Source: Lachnospiraceae bacterium (lineage in GTDB: Bacteria > Bacillota > Clostridia > Lachnospirales > Lachnospiraceae). Taken from it: a DNA stretch of 64,000 nucleotides. The stretch is from NCBI GenBank assembly GCA_022799175.1, contig JAAWNY010000003.1, positions 1 through 64,000 on the forward strand, given 5' to 3'. Positions 4,425 through 18,238 of this stretch are shown here, piece after piece; the first letter of the stretch is position 1, and each line of letters opens with the position of its first letter. The translations under genes and the position numbers were made by a program. A model generated the notes under the pieces. The model was not told the origin of the DNA and ran no database searches. It saw only the letters and a program-made list of their open reading frames with translations.

Positions 4425-4437
4425 GATGGGAGAAAAA

Positions 4438-5598
4438 ATGATACCATTATCTGTCCCTAATTTTATAGGTCGAGAATTAGATTATGTGACAAACGCAATA
4501 AAAACAGAATGGGTTTCTACCGGTGGTTCCTATATTGATTTGTTTGAGAAAAAAATAGCAGAATATGTTGGGACAATAGGAGCGGTATCTTGCCAGAATG
4601 GAACAGCAGGGATTCATATGGCATTAATGTTAATGGGAGTAACGAGAGAACAATTCGTGATAGTACCGACATTGACCTTTATTGCAGCAGTGAATCCGGT
4701 ACGATATCTGGGGGCAGAGCCGATTTTTTTGGATTGTGATGATTCTCTTTGCTTAGATCCATTCAAATTAGAAAAGTTTTGTAAAGAAGAATGCAAAGTG
4801 GAGAATGATAAATTGATCCATAAAGCTTCCCAAAAGGAAATTCCATGTATAGTGGTGGTGCATGTATTTGGAAATATGGCTGATATGGAATCGATTATGG
4901 ATATCGCGTCAACCTATCATTTAAAGGTAGTGGAAGATGCGACAGAAGCATTAGGGACTTATTATACGCAGGGAAAGTATCAGGGGAAATTTGCAGGTAC
5001 GATTGGCGATATTGGGATCTATTCATTTAATGGGAATAAAATTATTACTACGGGCGGCGGCGGAATGTTGGTGTCAGATGAAAAAGAAATTTTAAAAAAA
5101 GCAAAACATATGACAACGCAGGCCAAGAGCGATGAGCTATATTATGAACATGACGAAGTGGGATATAATTATAGAATGACAAATATTCAAGCGGCGTTAG
5201 GCGTGGCCCAGTTGGAGAATTTGGAAAGATTTATTCAGATCAAACGAGATAATTTCAATTATTATAGAAAACAAATGGCAGATAACAAAAATTATGAATT
5301 CTTGTCATTTTCAGATAAAGTGAGGCCAAATTATTGGTTTTATTCCTTGTATTTAAAGGATATCACGAATGATAACAGAGATCGATTTATTCAATATTTA
5401 TTGGAAAAGGGGATTCAAGTAAGGCCAATATGGGGACTGATCCATGAGCAAAAACCATACTTGAATTCTCTTGAGTATCAAATAGAAAAGGCGTCAGAAT
5501 ATAGAAAAAGAATCATAAATATACCATGTAGTACAAAGCTTACCGAGAAAGAGATTGATATAATTATAAATGTGATAAATGAATATCGAGGAGGATGA
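4438..5598 (+). CDS. legC: PLP sugar aminotransferase, LegC-like
   Basis: DegT/DnrJ/EryC1/StrS-fold PLP aminotransferase of about 386 residues. The cofactor Asp lies in VVEDATEALG and the Schiff-base Lys in SFNGNKIITTGGGG. It should aminate C4 of the 4-keto sugar made by the preceding dehydratase. I chose ATG 4438 (MIPLSVP) over the track start at 4426, because GGGAG at 4428-4432 then lies 5 bases upstream and the family normally begins in this way. It follows legB by 13 bases and precedes a methyltransferase by 3 bases, so the genes are tightly coupled. The VVEDATEALG wording is typical of LegC-type enzymes rather than PseC. Confidence 0.75.
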   Translation: MIPLSVPNFIGRELDYVTNAIKTEWVSTGGSYIDLFEKKIAEYVGTIGAVSCQNGTAGIHMALMLMGVTREQFVIVPTLTFIAAVNPVRYLGAEPIFLDCDDSLCLDPFKLEKFCKEECKVENDKLIHKASQKEIPCIVVVHVFGNMADMESIMDIASTYHLKVVEDATEALGTYYTQGKYQGKFAGTIGDIGIYSFNGNKIITTGGGGMLVSDEKEILKKAKHMTTQAKSDELYYEHDEVGYNYRMTNIQAALGVAQLENLERFIQIKRDNFNYYRKQMADNKNYEFLSFSDKVRPNYWFYSLYLKDITNDNRDRFIQYLLEKGIQVRPIWGLIHEQKPYLNSLEYQIEKASEYRKRIINIPCSTKLTEKEIDIIINVINEYRGG

Positions 5599-5601
5599 AA
5601 A

Positions 5602-6264
5602 ATGAAATCTTTTGACGAAAATTGGGAGAAGATACATGCGACAAGAGAATGGGGACAATATCCGGCTGAGCATGTGATCCGATTTGTGGCAAGAAATTTT
5701 TATGATAAAGACAGAAAAAAAGTAAAGATTTTAGATTTTGGCTGTGGCGGTGGGGCGCACACATGGTTTTTGGCAAGAGAAGGATTTGACACATATGCGT
5801 TTGACGGCTCTGCTTCTGCAATAAAAAGAGTAGAAGAAAAAATGAGAAAAGAAGGTTTAGCTGCGGATTTAAGGGTATTAGATGGAACGGAAATCGATTA
5901 TCCAGATGATTTTTTTGATGGAATTATTGATAACATAGCGATATGTGCGAATCGATATGAAGCGATTCAATGGATGTATAAAAACTGTTACAGAATTTTA
6001 AAATCTGGCGGAAAAATATTTACCAGTTGCATTACGCCAAAGACCGATGGTTGTGGAACGGGTGAGAAGATTGACGATAATACCTTTCGCAGTGAGTTAG
6101 CGGGAGTGGCAAAAGGTCAAGGGGTTATGCATTATTTTACAGAAAAGGAACTGAAGAATTGTCTGGAAACCATAGGTTTTATAAATATCGGGATCGATGA
6201 GCTGTTTTACACGGATAACGGAATAAAAGTAGATATGCTGATTGCTAAAGCAGAAAAAAGATGA
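5602..6264 (+). CDS. Class I SAM-dependent methyltransferase
   Basis: The protein has 220 residues. A glycine-rich SAM-binding motif I, ILDFGCGGGAHTWFLA, appears near residue 35, followed by an acidic residue in YAFDGSASAI and a LKSGG post-motif region. It is soluble. It sits 3 bases after the legC-like gene and about 35 bases before the legI-like gene, inside the nonulosonate set. It may therefore methylate a nonulosonate precursor or the finished sugar; O- or N-methylated legionaminic acids exist in other bacteria, but the substrate here is inferred from context. AGGAGGATG just before the start gives a good ribosome binding site. Confidence 0.7.
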   Translation: MKSFDENWEKIHATREWGQYPAEHVIRFVARNFYDKDRKKVKILDFGCGGGAHTWFLAREGFDTYAFDGSASAIKRVEEKMRKEGLAADLRVLDGTEIDYPDDFFDGIIDNIAICANRYEAIQWMYKNCYRILKSGGKIFTSCITPKTDGCGTGEKIDDNTFRSELAGVAKGQGVMHYFTEKELKNCLETIGFINIGIDELFYTDNGIKVDMLIAKAEKR

Positions 6265-6299
6265 GGAATTGAACAATAAACAGATAAGGTGTGGACGAT

Positions 6300-7304
6300 A
6301 TGGGAGTGCTCATTATTGCAGAGGTAGGTATCAACCATAACGGCGATTTGGCGATTGCGAAAGAGATGGTTCATGAAGCAAAGATGGCAGGGGCAGATAT
6401 TGTGAAATTTCAGACGTTTGTACCGGAACAAGAGTTATCTCAATATACGCCATTGACGGACTATCAACGAAAGAATACCAGAGATCAGGATTTTCAATAT
6501 CAGATAGACATGATAAAAAAGTACGAATTAAGTACAGATGAATTTCGACAAATTAAAGAATATTGTGAAAAAGAAAAGATTATGTTTTTGTCGACAGCAT
6601 CTGAATTAGTAAGTATCGAGACGCTGAATCGTATGAATCCGCAATTGTGGAAAGTACCGTCGAATGAAATTACAGATTATCCCTATTTAAAGCGTATTGG
6701 TCAGTTTCATAAGCCAGTAATTATGTCGACAGGAATTAGCACCTTGGAAGAAATCGGCGCCGCTATGAAAGTTTTGAAAGAGAATGGAGCGGGAAAAATA
6801 ACCTTACTTCATTGCACATCCGAATATCCTGCGCCATATGAGGAAGTCAACTTGCAGGCGATGCAGACATTGAAAAACGAATTTGGATGCGAAGTAGGAT
6901 ACTCCGATCACACACCAGGAATAGAAATATCGTTGGCGGCAGTTGCGCTAGGAGCTACCGTGATTGAAAAGCATTTTACCTTAGATAAAAATATGAGCGG
7001 TCCGGATCACAAGGCAAGTATTGATATCAGTGAACTGAGGCAATTGGTAAAGTCGATACGAAATATAGAAAGCGCTTTGGGAGATGGGATTAAGAGAGTG
7101 ACCGTATCGGAAGCAAAGAATAAAGAGATTATGAGAAAAAGTATTGTCGCACGGCGAAACATTAGCAAAGGAGAGATTTTATCCGAGAAGAATATAACGA
7201 CAAAGCGTCCTGGCAATGGGATTTCTCCGATGAATTGGGAAAAAATATTGGGAAGTGTGGCAAGCAGAGATTACAAAGAGGATGAAATGATATGCGAAGT
7301 ATAG
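6300..7304 (+). CDS. legI: Nonulosonic acid synthase (NeuB/LegI family)
   Basis: Sialic-acid-synthase family of about 334 residues. It has the early EVGINHNGD motif, KFQTF, a TGIST segment, LHCTSEYPAP, GYSDHTPG and EKHFTLD, all part of the PEP and metal site of the TIM barrel. The final ~60 residues, from RKSIVARRNISKGE, form the SAF/antifreeze-like domain that closes the neighbouring active site in the dimer. It condenses PEP with a 6-carbon sugar to give the 9-carbon acid. The track start at 6291 is GTG; ATG 6300 fits AAGGTG at 6284 better. It overlaps the next gene by 13 bases. Context (4,6-dehydratase, aminotransferase, hydrolysing epimerase) favours legionaminic over sialic acid. Confidence 0.85.
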   Translation: MGVLIIAEVGINHNGDLAIAKEMVHEAKMAGADIVKFQTFVPEQELSQYTPLTDYQRKNTRDQDFQYQIDMIKKYELSTDEFRQIKEYCEKEKIMFLSTASELVSIETLNRMNPQLWKVPSNEITDYPYLKRIGQFHKPVIMSTGISTLEEIGAAMKVLKENGAGKITLLHCTSEYPAPYEEVNLQAMQTLKNEFGCEVGYSDHTPGIEISLAAVALGATVIEKHFTLDKNMSGPDHKASIDISELRQLVKSIRNIESALGDGIKRVTVSEAKNKEIMRKSIVARRNISKGEILSEKNITTKRPGNGISPMNWEKILGSVASRDYKEDEMICEV

Positions 7305-8467
7305 CAATAATTACATCTACCCGAGCAGAATATGGACTCTTGAAACCTTTGATGGAACAGTTGCATCAAGATAAAGAGATAGAACTAAGGATTGTAGTGA
7401 CAGGGATGCATCTCTCCCATGCTTTTGGAAATACGATCGACGAGATACATGCAGATGGATTTTTGATCGATGAATGCATTGAAATTTTGTTTGATGGAGA
7501 TACCCCAAGTGCGATATCTAAAACTATGGGAATGGCAATTTTTGAATTTGCCAATTATTTTAACAGAAAAAAGCCAGACGCCGTTTTAGTATTGGGAGAT
7601 CGCTATGAAATTTTTGCAGTATGCATGAGCGCTATGAATTTTAAAATACCCATTATACATCTTTGTGGCGGAGAAGTGACAGAAGGCGCTATGGATGATG
7701 CGATCCGTCATGCGATTACCAAAATGAGTTTTTTACATTTTACAATAGCAGATGAGTACAAAAAAAGAGTGATTCAATTAGGAGAAAATCCCGACAGGGT
7801 TTATAACTTTGGTTCTTTAGGAAACGAGAATATTGCCAGAATACAATTGTTAAGTAAGGCTGAACTAGAAAGGGCGATCCATTTTCCTTTAGAACATCCG
7901 TATTCCGTAGTAACTTTTCATCCGGCTACGCGAAGTGAGCAATTATGTGAAGAACAGTTTGAAATTTTGCAAAATGCGTTAGTGCGTTTGGCAAATATGA
8001 ATTATATTATAACAAAAGCAAATGCGGATGCAGGAGGCAAACATATTAATAGGAGGATCGATATGTTTGCCTCGCAATATCCCGACAGAATTTATGCATG
8101 TGAATCTTTAGGAATGATAAAATATTTAAGCGCAATTAAATATAGCGAAATGGTTATTGGAAATTCCTCGAGTGGCATTGTAGAGGCGCCGGCATTTGGC
8201 GTTCCCACAATTAATATAGGAAATCGCCAAAAGGGGAGAATAGAGGCAGATTCGGTTATTACTTGCAGCGTGAATGAAGAAGAAATTTTAGATTCTATGA
8301 TGAAAGCCACAAAGGAAGCGTTTCGATCAAAGATCCGGACAATGAAAAATCCATATTATAAGGAAGATACTTCAAAAAATATGGCAGCTGTGATACATGA
8401 TTATTTATGTAACGATAAGATGAAAATAGAAAAAGAATTTTATGATGTAAAATTTCTGAATGGATAA
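7292..8467 (+). CDS. legG: Hydrolysing UDP-sugar 2-epimerase (NeuC/LegG family)
   Basis: The protein has 391 residues and begins with the family-typical TSTRAEYGLLKPL. It also carries VLGDRYEIF, HLCGGEVTEGAMDDAIRH and the C-terminal GNSSSGIVEAP donor-binding motif. The fold is GT-B-like. The expected reaction is hydrolysis with C2 inversion of a UDP-diacetamido-trideoxy sugar, giving the free 6-carbon sugar that the LegI-like enzyme condenses with PEP. The 13-base overlap with legI suggests translational coupling. NeuC (sialic acid) and LegG cannot be separated on motif alone; the dehydratase and aminotransferase upstream argue for LegG. Confidence 0.8.
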   Translation: MRSIAIITSTRAEYGLLKPLMEQLHQDKEIELRIVVTGMHLSHAFGNTIDEIHADGFLIDECIEILFDGDTPSAISKTMGMAIFEFANYFNRKKPDAVLVLGDRYEIFAVCMSAMNFKIPIIHLCGGEVTEGAMDDAIRHAITKMSFLHFTIADEYKKRVIQLGENPDRVYNFGSLGNENIARIQLLSKAELERAIHFPLEHPYSVVTFHPATRSEQLCEEQFEILQNALVRLANMNYIITKANADAGGKHINRRIDMFASQYPDRIYACESLGMIKYLSAIKYSEMVIGNSSSGIVEAPAFGVPTINIGNRQKGRIEADSVITCSVNEEEILDSMMKATKEAFRSKIRTMKNPYYKEDTSKNMAAVIHDYLCNDKMKIEKEFYDVKFLNG

Positions 8468-9466: not shown

Positions 9467-10525
9467 ATGATGGATTATACGAAAAAGATAATCTTATATG
9501 GGTTATCTATGTTCAAAGATAATGTTATAGAAATGTTAAGTGAAAAATACGGTTCTTTTGAGAACGCTAAGGAACACATTCTCTTTTTTACGGGTTCCAA
9601 TGAAAAATATTGGGGAGATGTATACCGTGGAATAGATATTAAAGAGCCCTCCGAAATTTTTCATTATCCGGAACGCCGTTATTTGCATTTTATCTTATAA
9701 ATTTGATGCCATAGCCCAAAACTTAAGAGAAAAAGGAATAGAAAATGATATTTATATGTCGCCTTTTTTGGTATATCGAACCTATTATAATTTGGCTTAT
9801 GGAAAAGAGTATATCGAAAAGCATGAGTCTGAACTTTATCAGTTATATGAAAAAAAGTGATGCTTATACGATGGATTTATTAAAACATATTATAGAGGAA
9901 AGAAGAAGCGGAAAAGAAGAATTTCAAAAGGTAGAATGGTTTCGCGGTTTGTCAGAGGTGAATGAATATTTTTACGATGACAGTTTGAATTCGGGAGGCG
10001 ATAAAACCTGGATTGATGTGGGAGCGTATACGGGTGATACCATAGAATTGGCATATGATCGTTTTAAAGATTCGATAAAAAAATATTATGCATTGGAACC
10101 GAACGAAAAAATAGTAGCTGAGCTTAACAATACAATAAATAAATTGAACATTCACGATAAAACCGAAATACTAGAATATGGACTGGGAAATAGAGATCAG
10201 ATACTGTGCTTTGAAGAAAAAGGAGCGCTTTCTAGCATTAATTTAGCGGGGGGGCAAAAAGATAAAAATAAAGCAATGGGATCAATTGGGGCTGGATATC
10301 ATAGGCACTCCCTATGTAAAGATGGATATAGAAGGAGCAGAGATGTCAGCATTGGAAGGCATGAGAAATTTTATCATAGAAAAAAGGCCGTATCTGGCAA
10401 TTTGTTTATACCACAGAATCGAGGATATCTTAGAAGTGCCAGCTTATATTTACAGTCTTGATAGAAACTACAAATTTTATTTGAGGGCAGGTATGCATAC
10501 CGAATGTTATGCCATACCTGTTTGA
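9467..10525 (+). pseudogene. FkbM-type methyltransferase, three apparent frameshifts
   Basis: Three reading frames in order make one plausible protein. Frame 1 (9467-~9690) is a Rossmann-like N-terminal module (KIILYGLSMFKDNV...). Frame 2 (~9690-9850) reads LSYKFDAIAQNLREKG.... Frame 3 (~9856-10250) contains the methyltransferase motif TWIDVGAYTGDT. After the G7 tract, a further frame gives YVKMDIEGAEMSALEG and the FkbM C-terminus. The shifts map to cattttatc (~9684), A7 at 9850-9856 and G7 at 10248-10254; removing one base at each restores a single ~350-residue reading frame. The architecture matches the intact FkbM gene at 19213. Explanations are gene decay, phase variation at the G7, or homopolymer sequencing error. 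GGGAGG at 9452 sets the ATG 9467 start. Confidence 0.7.
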
Positions 10526-11599: not shown

Positions 11600-11612
11600 T
11601 TAGGAGATTTTG

Positions 11613-12314
11613 ATGAAGGTACTTGCAGTAATTCCAGCCAGGAGCGGATCCAAAGGATTGAAAGATAAAAATATAAAAAGTTTGAATGGCAAACCATTGC
11701 TGGCGCATACGATAGAGGCGGCATTGGAGGCGGATATCTTCGATATCGTTCATGTGTCGACAGACTCTGAGATATATGCAGAGATAGCTAAAGAATACGG
11801 CGCAGATGTTCCCTTTTTAAGAGACAGTAAATGGGCGGCAGACCACTCGACAACATGGGATGCGATGAAATATGTATTAATGGAGTATCGAAAAAGAGGA
11901 AGGGAATTTGATGTATTAGTAGTTTTGCAACCGACATCTCCTTTGAGAAATGCGAAAGATATACAAAAGGCGTGGGGATTTTTTAACAATAAAAAGGCAG
12001 ATATGGTATCTTCTGTATGTGAGATGGACCATTCGCCATTATGGAGTAATACATTGCCGAGTGATTTATCTTTAAAAGATTTTGAGGATGAAACGATCGT
12101 TTATATGCCACGACAAAGTTTACCGACTTATTATCGGGAAAATGGAGCGATATATATAGTGAAATGTGATGTTTTATTAACTAAGAGTAATATATATAAG
12201 CAAAATTCCTATGCGTTTATTATGGATAAACAGAATTCTGTAGACATCGATGATGAAATTGACTTTATCCTGGCAGAAATATTAATGAAAAAAAGATATG
12301 AAGGAGAGGCATGA
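11613..12314 (+). CDS. legF: CMP-nonulosonate cytidylyltransferase (NeuA/LegF-like)
   Basis: About 233 residues. The N-terminal VIPARSGSKGLKDKNIK is the CTP-binding signature of CMP-sialate/CMP-Kdo synthetases. It is followed by VHVSTDSEIYAEIA, VLQPTSPLRNAKDI and a late YRENGAIYIVK and VDIDDEIDF metal-binding stretch. It activates the 9-carbon acid with CTP, giving the CMP donor for glycosyltransfer. The track start at 11610 is TTG; ATG 11613 with TAGGAG six bases upstream is preferred. It ends one base before the next start, so the pair is coupled. Confidence 0.8.
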   Translation: MKVLAVIPARSGSKGLKDKNIKSLNGKPLLAHTIEAALEADIFDIVHVSTDSEIYAEIAKEYGADVPFLRDSKWAADHSTTWDAMKYVLMEYRKRGREFDVLVVLQPTSPLRNAKDIQKAWGFFNNKKADMVSSVCEMDHSPLWSNTLPSDLSLKDFEDETIVYMPRQSLPTYYRENGAIYIVKCDVLLTKSNIYKQNSYAFIMDKQNSVDIDDEIDFILAEILMKKRYEGEA

Positions 12315-12315
12315 A

Positions 12316-13368
12316 ATGCCACTGACAAACGAAAATTATGTCATTAGTAAAGAAATGACCATAAAAGAAGCCATGCATAGGATTGAGACGGGGTTACAAA
12401 AAACAGTTTTTTTGACAGAGGGTGGAAAACTGAAAGGATGTTTAACCGATGGCGACGTGCGCAGACATTTGCTAAATGGGGGAAGTATCAATGACAATGT
12501 ATGCCAAATAGTAAATTTCAATCCCCAATATTTCTATGAAGACGATGTGATTGATTATCATAATTATATGATTGCGCATATGATATCTTCCTTGCCGATT
12601 GTAGATTCCCAGATGCATCTTGTGAGAATTGAATTTTTAAGTAACAGAAGCACAGAACATCACCAGATCGAAGAAAATGTTCCAGTTGTAATGATGGCAG
12701 GCGGGCTTGGAACAAGGTTGAAACCTTATACAGAAATTATTCCTAAGCCATTGATTCCTATCGGTTCCAAAACGATTACCGAGCATATTTTTGATAAATT
12801 TGAAGCATCTGGATGTAATGATTTTTATATGATTGTCAATTATAAAAAAAGTTTAATTGAAGCATATTTTAAAGATATGGATCATTATATTAATTTGAAA
12901 TTTATAGAAGAACCCTTTTTTATGGGGACAGCAGGAGGAATTCAATTATTAAAACAAAGGATAACGAGCAATTTCTTTATTGTGAATTGTGATGTTTTAG
13001 TGGATTTTGATTATTATCAAATATGGAAAAAACATATGAGTAATCATAATATTTTGACCATAGTATCCGCCAAAAAAGTGATAACGATTCCTTATGGAAC
13101 GATTGCCTCTGATGAAAATGATATCGTGAGTGACTTGATTGAAAAGCCACAATTAACCTATCACATTAATACTGGAATGTATTTATGTGATTCTAAAATT
13201 ATCGAATATATAAAAGATGAGGAAAAAATAGATATGCCTGATTTGATAAAAAGGTGTATCTCTGCAGGGGAACGAGTGGGACAAGTAGTCATTGGGCAAC
13301 AGAATTGGTATGATATGGGACAACCGAAAGAATTAGAATTGATGAAAAAAAGATTACATATTACGTAA
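12316..13368 (+). CDS. ptmE: CBS-pair nucleotidyltransferase (PtmE-like)
   Basis: About 350 residues. Residues ~10-115 form two CBS domains (TIKEAMHRIE...LKGCLTDGDVRRHL), which usually sense adenosine nucleotides. Residues ~120-350 form a sugar-phosphate nucleotidyltransferase with MMAGGLGTRLKPYTE, IPKPLIPIG, NCDVLVDFD and a late WYDMGQP. This domain order matches PtmE, which makes the GDP-amino-sugar used by the Campylobacter legionaminic pathway. The start is ATG 12316 after AAGGAGAG at 12301; the track start at 12298 lies inside the previous gene. If the route is GDP-linked, an isomerising GlmS-like partner should exist, and I do not see one in this window. Confidence 0.75.
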   Translation: MPLTNENYVISKEMTIKEAMHRIETGLQKTVFLTEGGKLKGCLTDGDVRRHLLNGGSINDNVCQIVNFNPQYFYEDDVIDYHNYMIAHMISSLPIVDSQMHLVRIEFLSNRSTEHHQIEENVPVVMMAGGLGTRLKPYTEIIPKPLIPIGSKTITEHIFDKFEASGCNDFYMIVNYKKSLIEAYFKDMDHYINLKFIEEPFFMGTAGGIQLLKQRITSNFFIVNCDVLVDFDYYQIWKKHMSNHNILTIVSAKKVITIPYGTIASDENDIVSDLIEKPQLTYHINTGMYLCDSKIIEYIKDEEKIDMPDLIKRCISAGERVGQVVIGQQNWYDMGQPKELELMKKRLHIT

Positions 13369-13394: not shown

Positions 13395-14369
13395 ATGTTT
13401 AAAGTGGCACTGATTGGTTGTGGAAACTTGGGAAGCAGACATTTGCAGGCTCTTAAACTTACGAACAAAGAATTAGATATTACTGTCTGTGAGCCAGATG
13501 AGCAAGCTATAAAAATTGCACAGGAAAGATATAACCAAGTGGAAGGGAGTTCTTTTAGAAAAACCATAAGATTTATTTCAGATTATAGAGAATTATCTGA
13601 GGATATCGATTTGGTTATCGTTGCAACAACTTCAGCAAGTCGTTTTTCCATTGCCGAATGGGTGTTATTACATGTTAATATTAAATATATATTGCTTGAA
13701 AAAGTTGTTTTTCAAAGTTTGGATGAATTGGATCAATTTTCAGATTTGCTGAGAAACAGAGCGGTAAAAGTATGGGTCAACTGTCCTCGAAGAATGTTTG
13801 AATTTTATAAGAAACTGAAGAGTCAGATCTATGGAAAATCGGATATTAATATGACGATTCAGGGCGTGGAATGGGGCATGGCTTGCAATGCTATTCACAT
13901 ATTAGATTTATATAGATTTTTAACAGGATTTACTGTTTGTGAATATAATAATGAAAAAATGTTTCAAGGCTATTACGACAGTAAGAGAGAAGGATATCTG
14001 GAGTTTTATGGAAAAATTGAATTAACTACGGATAAAGGAAAACTTATCTTAGATTGTGACAAAGGTGATGTGGCAACGGATCGAATAATCATACAGATGC
14101 CGGAAGAATGGATTGAAATTGATGAAAGCACTAGAGAAGCAACCATCCATTCATATGAAAAAGAGGAGGTAACGGAGCGTTTATCAGTAGATATCAAATA
14201 TCAAAGTTTTCTTACCAATATAGTAGTCGAACAAATAATCAATAATGGGGAATGTGAGTTGAGTATTTATGAAGATTCTGCCTTATTACATAAAATTTTG
14301 TTATCTTGTTTTCTGAATCATATAAATAAGTACACGAATGTGGAGGTGAAAAAATGTCCGATAACATAA
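13395..14369 (+). CDS. Gfo/Idh/MocA-family oxidoreductase (1)
   Basis: The protein has 324 residues. The N-terminal Rossmann motif is ALIGCGNLGSRHLQAL, followed by VIVATTSASRFSIA and a YILLEKVVFQS segment. The family's conserved EKP, whose Lys contacts cofactor and substrate, reads EKV here. The C-terminal half has the expected substrate-domain order, including AIHILDLYRFL with the His-x-x-Asp typical of the catalytic helix. It probably oxidises or reduces a sugar or nucleotide sugar with NAD(P). The gene overlaps the next, related one by 16 bases, and tandem members often act on consecutive steps. Substrate unknown. Confidence 0.7.
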   Translation: MFKVALIGCGNLGSRHLQALKLTNKELDITVCEPDEQAIKIAQERYNQVEGSSFRKTIRFISDYRELSEDIDLVIVATTSASRFSIAEWVLLHVNIKYILLEKVVFQSLDELDQFSDLLRNRAVKVWVNCPRRMFEFYKKLKSQIYGKSDINMTIQGVEWGMACNAIHILDLYRFLTGFTVCEYNNEKMFQGYYDSKREGYLEFYGKIELTTDKGKLILDCDKGDVATDRIIIQMPEEWIEIDESTREATIHSYEKEEVTERLSVDIKYQSFLTNIVVEQIINNGECELSIYEDSALLHKILLSCFLNHINKYTNVEVKKCPIT

Positions 14370-15325
14370 AGGATCTTTTATTAGTGGGCACCGGAGCAAT
14401 GGCGATAGAATATATCAAAGTGTTGGATGGTTTGCAGAAAACGTATGATGTGGTAGGGAATAGCAATCGATCGGTAACTGCTTTTAAAGAACAAACAGGA
14501 GTCCATGCTTATTGTGGGGGAATCGAGAAGTATGTGACAGAAAATAGAGGACATTTATTTCCCAATTATGCCATTGTTGCCATTGATGGAGAAAAGCTTT
14601 GTGAAGCTTCGGAGATGCTGATAGAAAGTGGAGTGAAACATATACTGATTGAAAAGCCCGGAGCTATCACGCAGAGTCAGATGAAGCGTCTGGTGAAAAA
14701 AGCAGAAGAGAAAAAGGTGAATGTTTTTATTGGCTATAACAGAAGATTTTATGCATCTGTAGAAAAAGCAGAAGAAATCATAAAGAAAGATGGGGGCATT
14801 TTATCCTTAAATTTTGAATTTACGGAGTGGAGCCATGTGATTGAGAAAACTGCAAATAGTAAGGAAATAAAAGAAAAATGGTTTTTGATGAATTCCTCGC
14901 ATGTGGTTGATTTGGCATTTTATTTCATGGGAAATCCGAAAGTCATGCATACTCACATAAAAGGGGAAAAAGAGTGGCATCCCGCAGGTAGTATTTACTG
15001 CGGTTGCGGAGAGAGTGAGAAGGGGATTTTATTTACCTATCAGGCAAACTGGGGAGCGCCTGGCAGATGGGGGATTGAAATTTTGACAAAGAATCATCGT
15101 TTATATCTGAGACCAATGGAAAAGTTGAGCATTCAAGAAATTGGAAGTGTAGCGGTAAGAGAATGTGAGATAGATGATGAAATGGACTTGAAATATAAAG
15201 CGGGTCTGTTCAGAGAGGTAGAGGAATTATTCAATCATTCTGAAACAGTCACCAGATTATGTACCTTACAGGAACAAGAATATCATATGACCATTTATGA
15301 ACAAATTTCGGGGGAGTGTTACTAA
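14354..15325 (+). CDS. Gfo/Idh/MocA-family oxidoreductase (2)
   Basis: The protein has 323 residues. The Rossmann motif is LLVGTGAMAIEYIKVL. The canonical EKPGA cofactor/substrate motif and GYNRRFYASV follow, with a MNSSHVVDLAFYFMG helix carrying the His and Asp expected in the active site. It is a soluble NAD(P)-dependent sugar oxidoreductase by family. It overlaps the preceding paralogue by 16 bases, and its stop is one base before the next gene's ATG. Only about one third or less of the sequence looks shared with its neighbour, so this is an old duplication or two independently recruited members. Confidence 0.75.
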   Translation: MSDNIKDLLLVGTGAMAIEYIKVLDGLQKTYDVVGNSNRSVTAFKEQTGVHAYCGGIEKYVTENRGHLFPNYAIVAIDGEKLCEASEMLIESGVKHILIEKPGAITQSQMKRLVKKAEEKKVNVFIGYNRRFYASVEKAEEIIKKDGGILSLNFEFTEWSHVIEKTANSKEIKEKWFLMNSSHVVDLAFYFMGNPKVMHTHIKGEKEWHPAGSIYCGCGESEKGILFTYQANWGAPGRWGIEILTKNHRLYLRPMEKLSIQEIGSVAVRECEIDDEMDLKYKAGLFREVEELFNHSETVTRLCTLQEQEYHMTIYEQISGECY

Positions 15326-15326
15326 T

Positions 15327-16309
15327 ATGTCAGAATCAACGATGCGTCAACATATGAACGATAGATTTGGAAAGGTCTTTCATTACACAGAAAATCCGCC
15401 ATTACCTCGTTCGCTAAATATTGAATTGAATAGTAGCTGCAATCAATCTTGTATTTTTTGTCCGTTTCATGGGAAATATGCCATTAATCCACCGAAACCG
15501 TCGGTAATGGACTTTGAAACAGTAAAAAGAATACTAGACAGTGCGAAGAATCTGGGGGGGGTATGGGAGAAAAAGAGGTAGGCTTTTATCTGTCGGGAGA
15601 AGCTTTTCTCTATAAAAAATTAGCGGAGGTGATCGCATATGCCAAAAAAGTGGGTTATGAGTATACCTTTCTCACAACAAATGGCGCGTTGGCATTTCCG
15701 GAACAAATGAAAGCGGTGTTAGATGCGGGCTTGGACAGCATTCGTTTTTCGATCAACGCAGTAGACAGAGAGACATATAAAGAGATTCATGGTAAAGATG
15801 ATTTTGACGATGTTTTAAGTAATATTAAATTTATGCATCATTATATACAAGAAAAAAATTTGAAGGTGGCAACTTCGTTATCCTGCGTGATAACAAAGAA
15901 GACGCTGGGAATTCAAGACAAAGTGAAACGTATTTTTGGAGAATATGTAGAAGATATTCTTTTTATTCCCGTAATTGTTAATAGATTGTTGCCAGATAAG
16001 AAGTTTTTAGAGGAATATAGATTATTTGATGAAGGGGAAGATAAAATCAATAAAAATTATATTTGTCCGATGCTTTTTGATACGATGTATATCAATGCAG
16101 ATCTGAAGGTAATGCCATGTTGTGACGCCTATGATTCGAATACCTTTTTTTATGATTTGAATGAGGATTTTAATCTGGAACATGCATGGACGTCTGATTT
16201 ATATAAGCGATATAGGGACATTTTTTTGAAAAATGCGGATGATGAAGGAACAATATGTAAAGATTGTGTTTTGAGAAAGAAAGGAATGGAAAGCTGGTCT
16301 TTAGAGTAA
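15327..16309 (+). pseudogene. Radical SAM/SPASM-like protein split at a G8 tract
   Basis: The first part (15327-15581) has the radical SAM cluster motif CNQSCIFC. The second (from about 15563, next frame) begins MGEKEVGFYLSGEAF and ends with a cysteine-rich region (MPCCDAYDSN, CKDCVLRKKG) like a SPASM auxiliary-cluster domain. The two join at GGGGGGGG, 15554-15561. With nine (or six) Gs one protein of about 328 residues is read; with eight it stops at 15581. GGGGAG ten bases before ATG 15327 sets the start. The gene is otherwise undamaged, which favours slipped-strand ON/OFF switching or a sequencing miscount over decay. It would do radical chemistry on a sugar or peptide; substrate unknown. 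Confidence 0.75.
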
Positions 16310-16339: not shown

Positions 16340-18238
16340 TTGAAAGAAGAATATAAAAATTTTTTTTTGAATTCGGAACAAATAGGTAATATATGTAAAG
16401 AAAAAAAATTAATTCTTTTTGGTGCAGGGGCAGATGGGAGCAGATTTTATAGAAGAAATTATCATAGAGTAAGCGTATCCTATTTCGTGGATAACGGGGA
16501 TATCGAGGGCTATACGATATATGGGAAACGTATCGTTGACGGTTCCTATTTGCAAAACCATTATCAGAATGAAATTATTTTGATAACCTCCTTAAAATAT
16601 AAAAGTGAAATAGCAGAACAATTAGAAAACAATGGATTTCAACCAGGAATTCATTTTTGGATTTGGAATGGAAGAGATACGGCGGAGACCATTAATTTTG
16701 AGGATAATAATACAAAAGAATTTATTGAATTTAATAAGAGATTATGGAAAAAAGAGCAGAAAGAAAAATCAAAGAATAAGATATTAATGCCATACCGAAG
16801 GACGGTTGAAATTGTCTATGCCCCCTGGAGTTATGCGGCAAATTATCTTGCAGAAAAATATGATGCGGATATCTATTGTATAGGCGGCGTGGGGGATGTG
16901 GTAGAATCGGATCTCTGGGGGTTATATCAATCCTTTAACGTAGCAGGATTTATAGATGAAACACTAAATGAATCCATGAATGAAGAACGGGATAAGATTT
17001 TCCATACCGTTTGGAAAAACATTAAATGCGAAGAGGATATAAAAGAAATAGAAATATATGGGGAAAATTATGGCGTAGATATTTTACGAGATTATTTGCG
17101 ATTAGAGTTTCCACGACTGTATATGAATGATTGGAATTTAAAAAAGCAAGTGAAGCGAATGATCGGTTATGTGATTTTTTGGAGTAATTATATAAAAGAA
17201 AATGCAGGACAAATCAAGTCGATAATTGTTTGGGATGGATTATATTACCGGGAAGGGATCCTTCGCAAGATAGCTTATAGTTATGACATTCCCGTTTATT
17301 CTATTGTAAATACAACTTGCTTTAAATGGGAGTATGATTTGGATTACAGTTTTCCCTTTTACAAAAAGTTTTTTAATATGTTGAGTGAACAAGAAAAAAG
17401 AGATGGTATAAACTGGGCAAAAAGAAAACTGGAGAAACATCTTGCAGGGAATACCGACGATATGGTGATGTTTCATAAATCAGTATTTGAAGTAAAATGT
17501 GACGAGAATGTATTAGAAACAAACGATAAAATAAAAATTATGATATGTCCCCATTATACAGAAGATGATGCGTTTCCATATGGCGATATGTTTTTTACAG
17601 ATCCATGGGACTGGTTGGAATATTTAGGAGAGCTTTCAAACAACACGGATTATGATTGGTACTTAAAGCCCCATCCAATTGAGAAAGAATTGGGGGATAA
17701 ATTGATAGAAGAATATGTGGAAAGGTATCCCAATATAAAGTTGTTACCCAAATTTGTCTCACCCATTCAATTAAAAAAGGAAGGAATGAAATTTGCATTA
17801 ACGATTCATGGAAGCATCGGGTATGAATATCCGCTAATCGGCATCGACGTGATTAATGCCGGATATAATCCTCATATTGCATTTGATTTTGACTGGAATC
17901 CGAAAAGTAAAGAAGAATATGAACACATATTGATGAACCTGCAGACAGCTGAAAAAACAATAGATAAAGAAGAAATATATCAATTTTATTGTATTCATTT
18001 TGGGTATTATATTCCGCGGAGACAAGATTTGATGAATGTATTTTTCAAAGATTCGAGATTACAAGATGTAAGAGGATTAGTTGGCAGTAAAACAAAATAT
18101 ACTACGGATCTATTTAAATATTATATGGAGGAAACATCAGAAACCCGACATGAAGAATTGAAAAAAATATATGCGGATTTATTTAAAGATATGGATCAAT
18201 ACAAAGAAGGGGTTTTCTATAAACGTGGATTGATGTAA
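16340..18238 (+). CDS. Rossmann module + GT-B-like glycosyltransferase
   Basis: The protein has 632 residues. Residues ~23-120 are a nucleotide-binding-like module (LILFGAGADGSRFYRR, then YFVDNGD). The remainder resembles capsule/CDP-glycerol-type GT-B enzymes, with WYLKPHPIEKE and FALTIHGSIGYEYPLIGI near the C-terminus. No membrane segment. The start codon is TTG 16340: AAGGAGG at 16326-16332 lies seven bases upstream, an excellent spacing. A T9 run (16370-16378) and an A8 run (16401-16408) fall within the first 25 codons and are currently in frame. The donor sugar is unknown. Confidence 0.65.
   Translation: MKEEYKNFFLNSEQIGNICKEKKLILFGAGADGSRFYRRNYHRVSVSYFVDNGDIEGYTIYGKRIVDGSYLQNHYQNEIILITSLKYKSEIAEQLENNGFQPGIHFWIWNGRDTAETINFEDNNTKEFIEFNKRLWKKEQKEKSKNKILMPYRRTVEIVYAPWSYAANYLAEKYDADIYCIGGVGDVVESDLWGLYQSFNVAGFIDETLNESMNEERDKIFHTVWKNIKCEEDIKEIEIYGENYGVDILRDYLRLEFPRLYMNDWNLKKQVKRMIGYVIFWSNYIKENAGQIKSIIVWDGLYYREGILRKIAYSYDIPVYSIVNTTCFKWEYDLDYSFPFYKKFFNMLSEQEKRDGINWAKRKLEKHLAGNTDDMVMFHKSVFEVKCDENVLETNDKIKIMICPHYTEDDAFPYGDMFFTDPWDWLEYLGELSNNTDYDWYLKPHPIEKELGDKLIEEYVERYPNIKLLPKFVSPIQLKKEGMKFALTIHGSIGYEYPLIGIDVINAGYNPHIAFDFDWNPKSKEEYEHILMNLQTAEKTIDKEEIYQFYCIHFGYYIPRRQDLMNVFFKDSRLQDVRGLVGSKTKYTTDLFKYYMEETSETRHEELKKIYADLFKDMDQYKEGVFYKRGLM

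Follow-up and report, generated by a model that had tools for sequence, protein, structure and literature searches.

A G8 tract meets the junction of two halves of a radical SAM gene

A radical SAM gene of a Lachnospiraceae bacterium is divided into two reading frames at a run of eight Gs, which raises the question of whether this run is a phase-variation switch or the mark of a gene being lost. In the 64-kb stretch of DNA that we analyzed (the window), the tract GGGGGGGG (G8) occupies exactly 15554 to 15561 on the + strand. No other G run in the window is as long; the next are one G7 (10248 to 10254) and one G6 per strand. The first-pass annotation, made from the window alone, had placed the meeting point of two radical SAM/SPASM halves at this run, and the coordinates, the reading frames and the Pfam matches all agree with it.

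The upstream frame begins with a start codon (15327), runs open through 87 codons into the tract, and meets a stop codon at 15579 to 15581, at most 20 nt past the tract. The 5' half (15327 to 15581, + strand) carries the cluster motif CNQSCIFC and, with eight Gs, ends at about 84 residues. The second frame is open for 248 codons downstream of the tract, and this 3' half (15563 to 16309, + strand) encodes the remaining barrel and the SPASM domain, with the conserved cysteines kept. Both halves match the Radical_SAM family (PF04055) consecutively, at profile positions 5 to 41 and then 46 to 139, and the 3' half contributes the SPASM domain (PF13186). The gene shows the features of the radical SAM/SPASM class, namely a CxxxCxxC motif in the core (here CNQSCIFC) and C-terminal SPASM cysteines, with the invariant cysteines retained.

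A homopolymer capable of slipping (at least 7 Gs) is present inside the coding sequence, and the reading frame is set by its length, the two intact halves lying in different frames. The earlier statement that nine or six Gs would restore a single frame is correct, and the homologues described below are equivalent to three Gs. Run length says little here. Dinucleotide shuffles of the 64-kb window are expected to contain 2.2 G8 runs, so that one such run is not significant, and we dropped length by itself as an argument. More telling is that the tract coincides with the frame junction, that the gene has no other indels, that the expansion is specific to the lineage, and that a TA dinucleotide stands immediately 3' of the tract (15562 to 15563, + strand), a flank common to the long G runs of relatives.

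The split gene follows a legionaminate-type nonulosonate cluster

The radical SAM gene is placed after a legionaminate-type nonulosonate cluster, all on the + strand. The core gene set (4426 to 8467) comprises a LegC aminotransferase (4426 to 5598), a methyltransferase (5602 to 6264), NeuB/LegI (6291 to 7304) and NeuC/LegG (7292 to 8467); LegC, NeuB/LegI and NeuC/LegG scored above the NCBIfam cut-offs (TIGR04181, TIGR03569 and TIGR03568 for the nonulosonate core genes). Further downstream lie a PseF-like CMP-nonulosonate cytidylyltransferase (11610 to 12314; TIGR03584, below cut-off), a PtmE-like CBS/nucleotidyltransferase matching sugar nucleotidyltransferase families (12298 to 13368) and, directly upstream of the radical SAM gene, two Gfo/Idh/MocA oxidoreductase genes (13395 to 14369 and 14354 to 15325; PF01408). 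In three homologous loci (L012, L013 and L014), the radical SAM gene directly adjoins a gene for a CMP-nonulosonate transferase. The gene sits in a nonulosonate cluster beside a CMP-transferase both in the window and in the homologues, and may act on a surface structure. The PtmE-like gene of L014 bears a G8 of its own, within codons for Lys-Gly-Gly-Ala; it is in frame and has no sign of a switch, and we rejected it as one.

For function, the best sequence-profile match in the PDB was BtrN (4m7t; E = 8e-22), a radical SAM dehydrogenase of a cyclitol, and the best fold match was BlsE (7vob). Both share the core motif with the window enzyme and use sugar-like or nucleotide-sugar substrates, but at about 16% identity, the level seen with anything characterized, and a TM-score of about 0.5 to 0.6 they are too distant for a substrate or reaction to be carried over. 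Judging from the neighborhood and this remote structural similarity, the enzyme probably modifies the nonulosonate or its activated precursor.

The tract is an expansion in an otherwise undamaged gene

We compared the gene with homologues found by a scan of GTDB contigs, namely L012 (61% identity, from a rabbit-gut MAG), L013 (59%), L014 (57%) and L015 (45%). Each of the four is one intact ORF without a G run at the tract site. Against L012 to L014, the window gene aligned without gaps over 75 codons before the tract and 248 after it (323 in all), and the tract was the sole indel, which upholds the claim that the gene shows no other damage. At the tract site, the window has 11 nt (CTGGGGGGGGT) and L012 to L014 have 6 nt (two codons); the tract is therefore an expansion from three Gs to eight, with five extra. 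Homologues that lack the tract and carry many disabling mutations had been named as evidence against a switch: the tract is indeed lacking, whereas the homologues are intact.

The window gene retained 32 of the 33 residues invariant among 13 homologues, the exception being an Asp-to-Glu change. Purifying selection seems to act on both halves (dN/dS about 0.15 for the 3' half, at saturated synonymous sites). In a protein model of L012 (mean pLDDT 78; 83 to 95 in the blocks flanking the site), the tract site maps to a loop between the helix at 63 to 75 and the strand at 82 to 85, where the homologues vary in length. It is plausible from this model that added glycines are tolerated in the loop.

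The main rival is a frameshift fixed in a partly decaying cluster, that is, ordinary gene loss in which a slippage-prone G run took the first hit, the gene was recently inactivated and decay is to follow. Pairwise dN/dS involving the window gene was about 0.15 (3' half), against 0.06 to 0.10 among the homologues, with synonymous sites saturated. Within the same cluster, an FkbM-like methyltransferase gene (9467 to 10525) has three frame breaks, near a T5 (about 9660), an A7 (about 9850) and the G7 (10248 to 10254). We examined this G7 as a second switch and rejected it; with two further breaks and no TA flank, the gene was treated as a pseudogene, and its presence means that some decay is under way. 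Elsewhere in the host genome, an LrgB-like membrane protein gene (L003:3052-3719, minus strand, contig C18) is likewise cut at a G8; its flank is AT, not TA, and it probably carries a further internal deletion. Against gene loss, the 323 aligned codons hold no second lesion, although 127 codons of the gene are one step from a stop, and a single frameshift explains neither the growth from three Gs to eight nor the TA flank shared with relatives. We regard gene loss as unlikely.

A second alternative is an assembly or sequencing error, with a true run of fixed, in-frame length and an intact gene. The host assembly is a draft of 122 contigs, and G runs are prone to error in amplification and assembly, according to a study of Bifidobacterium breve (PMC9187656). 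However, the many A or T runs of 7 to 9 in the window (such as the T9 at 16360 to 16368) break no gene except at the A7 of the FkbM-like gene, so the assembly is not an error-prone one. Moreover, a one-base mistake leaves 7 or 9 Gs, still expanded over three; such an error would alter the ON/OFF state of the tract, not its nature. We consider this explanation improbable. The same T9, the longest T run in the window, is a possible second slippage site; it falls in frame close to the beginning of the following gene (16340 to 18238).

The host has few long G runs and intact mismatch repair

We counted G runs via G8, G9 and G10 words; the sequences examined in detail for comparison were stretches of genomes. 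In the 2.97 Mb of the host genome there are 6 runs of at least 8, 1 of at least 9 and 0 of at least 10; a general poly-G excess is absent. Only one of the 6 runs of at least 8, the window tract itself, is followed by TA. Two apparent splits at G7 in the host genome (L091 and L105) were set aside, since they appear to be gene ends. Intact mismatch repair usually lowers slippage. As mutS1 is intact in the host and present throughout the congeners, scoring below cut-off in a single incomplete genome, we rejected loss of mismatch repair as a cause of instability.

Relatives carry a class of long intragenic G tracts

The picture in relatives is different. Runs of at least 8 Gs numbered 52, 40 and 33 in three congeners (G010, G012 and G021) versus 6 in the host, and runs of at least 9 numbered 39, 31 and 23 versus 1. 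The genome (G195) of the closest homologue, L012, has 30 runs of at least 9, eight of them on one contig. Overall, congeners and other Lachnospiraceae hold up to about 50 clustered G8 to G14 tracts, with a plateau in run length. Most of the tracts belong to the coding strand of a long ORF, and the opposite strand held a longer ORF at none of 19 tracts in G012. We excluded, as potential artefacts, G runs at contig ends or longer than 15 in four genomes (G003, G006, G017 and G019). Among them, a 53-base C run at the end of a G019 contig (C82, bases 1 to 53) is probably a sequencing artefact, and such runs inflate raw poly-G counts.

Some of the relatives' tracts are in frame, and others split genes within one domain, as with Asn_synthase (profile positions 2 to 112, then 119 to 335) and GATase_7 (1 to 63, then 70 to 121). 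Where 50 or more codons were open on both sides, 25 of 56 long tracts split a gene, compared with 48 of 354 G5 to G6 runs at these loci (Fisher p = 3e-7). A homologous locus of three genomes in the genus (L062, L077 and L083) keeps a G11 to G12 at the same place, with flanks 75 to 88% identical, which indicates that some tracts are older than the species carrying them. The closest homologue's genome also has a retropepsin-like gene (L012:7417-8179) that seems to be split at a G6 (7698 to 7703).

The tract genes of the congeners belong to families of acyltransferases, methyltransferases, hexapeptide transferases, formyltransferases, MBOAT, glycosyltransferase 2 and GtrA. In other genera of Lachnospiraceae, including genomes with multi-megabase contigs, the tracts lie in SLH and LRR surface proteins, glycosyltransferases and acetyltransferases. 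In contrast to these surface-glycan and adhesin families, the ORFs of comparison regions from the same genomes were of the housekeeping kind (ABC transporters, oxidoreductases and regulators). That these regions have no G8 runs is not independent evidence, as they were picked at a distance from the listed tracts.

These tracts also bear on a third alternative, programmed recoding, in which the ribosome or RNA polymerase, by slipping on the G run, would produce the complete protein at a defined level despite the eight Gs. Transcription can slip on long homopolymers, and an ATG in the downstream frame stands directly after the tract. Nevertheless, the homologues are single intact ORFs without a slippery run, and the occurrence of the relatives' tracts both in and out of frame is unlike a conserved recoding site. 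We hold recoding to be very improbable.

Long G runs of Lachnospiraceae are often followed by TA

Long G runs were followed by TA in 58% of cases in G012, 85% in G010, 89% in G021 and 61% in G195, while TA followed mostly 5 to 8% of G3 to G6 runs (one bin, G5 in G195, reached 19%). Across 23 congeners, TA stood after 146 of 349 long runs (42%), versus AT before 41 of 349; after shorter runs the TA share was about 5%. In 198 further Lachnospiraceae genomes, G8TA occurred 343 times against 77 for the reversed control. The count was close to that of the control (223 versus 189) in 148 genomes from elsewhere in the phylum, and we rejected the flank as a general property of Bacillota. Viral contigs searched for a flank pattern gave no matches, and neither did plasmids searched by megablast. 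The TA preference is not predicted by simple slippage.

Taken together, the run-length plateau, the excess of splits, the TA flank and the gene families set the relatives' tracts apart from chance. As far as comparison of sequences can tell, this class bears the marks of contingency loci, and the window tract fits it in position, strand, flank and gene type.

A candidate poly-G switch and its relation to known systems

We infer that the G8 is a poly-G contingency (phase-variation) tract in a radical SAM/SPASM enzyme that probably modifies the nonulosonate of the cluster or its activated precursor, and we give this reading a probability of roughly 60%. Slipped-strand mispairing in replication would add or remove Gs at 15554 to 15561. 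Tract lengths in multiples of three would give a single enzyme of about 326 residues (ON), and the assembled G8 would end translation at about 84 residues (OFF). Nonulosonate modification would then differ between cell lineages. Both the variation of tract length in a living population and the action of the enzyme on the sugar are predicted from the DNA. Points against this contingency reading are the host's lack of a long-run excess, the tractless close homologues, the decaying neighbor and the intact mutS1. The proposal of a phase-variable locus stood in part: anatomy, homologues and relatives favor a switch tract, and the locus keeps the status of a candidate.

Campylobacter jejuni NCTC11168 has 29 poly-G tracts, and its poly-G contingency genes include cj1426 and wlaN (cj1139), the latter ON at G8 and OFF at G7 (PMC8437040). 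Because wlaN alternates between these lengths, G8 is long enough to switch. The likeness extends to the intragenic position, similar lengths and clustering in surface-glycan genes, with tens of tracts per genome in the rich Lachnospiraceae relatives. The poly-G contingency gene Cj1295 is reported to modify flagellin pseudaminic acid (PMC3068675), a switch on a nonulosonate-modifying gene, as proposed for the window. Unlike the C. jejuni system, the candidate switch is known from sequence, in a Gram-positive Lachnospiraceae host with an intact mutS1, a TA after the tract and a radical SAM enzyme. The pilus G-tracts of B. breve (bbr_0113 and bbr_1889), where a mixture of tract lengths decides expression (PMC9187656), resemble the window tract in that an intragenic G-tract parts two ORFs of one surface gene in a Gram-positive gut commensal. 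They differ in belonging to Actinobacteria, in length (G10 to G12), in lying in pilus genes, in numbering one or two loci per genome and in having been measured by deep sequencing.

Implications for Lachnospiraceae

Lachnospiraceae rank with the most abundant bacteria of the gut, and accounts of phase variation in gut commensals deal mostly with invertible DNA. Our literature search, which covered 5.4 million open papers but only a minority of subscription papers and preprints, turned up no description of poly-G phase variation for the family, in agreement with the first-pass annotation, which knew of no well-described cases in Lachnospiraceae nonulosonate loci. The tracts point to an on/off system of the Campylobacter kind that has so far gone undescribed. 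We see about even odds that Lachnospiraceae run poly-G phase variation of surface-glycan and adhesin genes on a Campylobacter scale with mismatch repair present, with a family-specific G(8+)TA signature which hints that the tracts arise or are maintained in a special way, and with the window gene as a member. If so, the surface glycans and adhesins of these bacteria would switch randomly in every host, and many annotated pseudogenes in Lachnospiraceae genomes would merely be OFF for now. Such a family-wide system would matter for how susceptible these bacteria are to phages, how antibodies recognize them and how their strains are typed.
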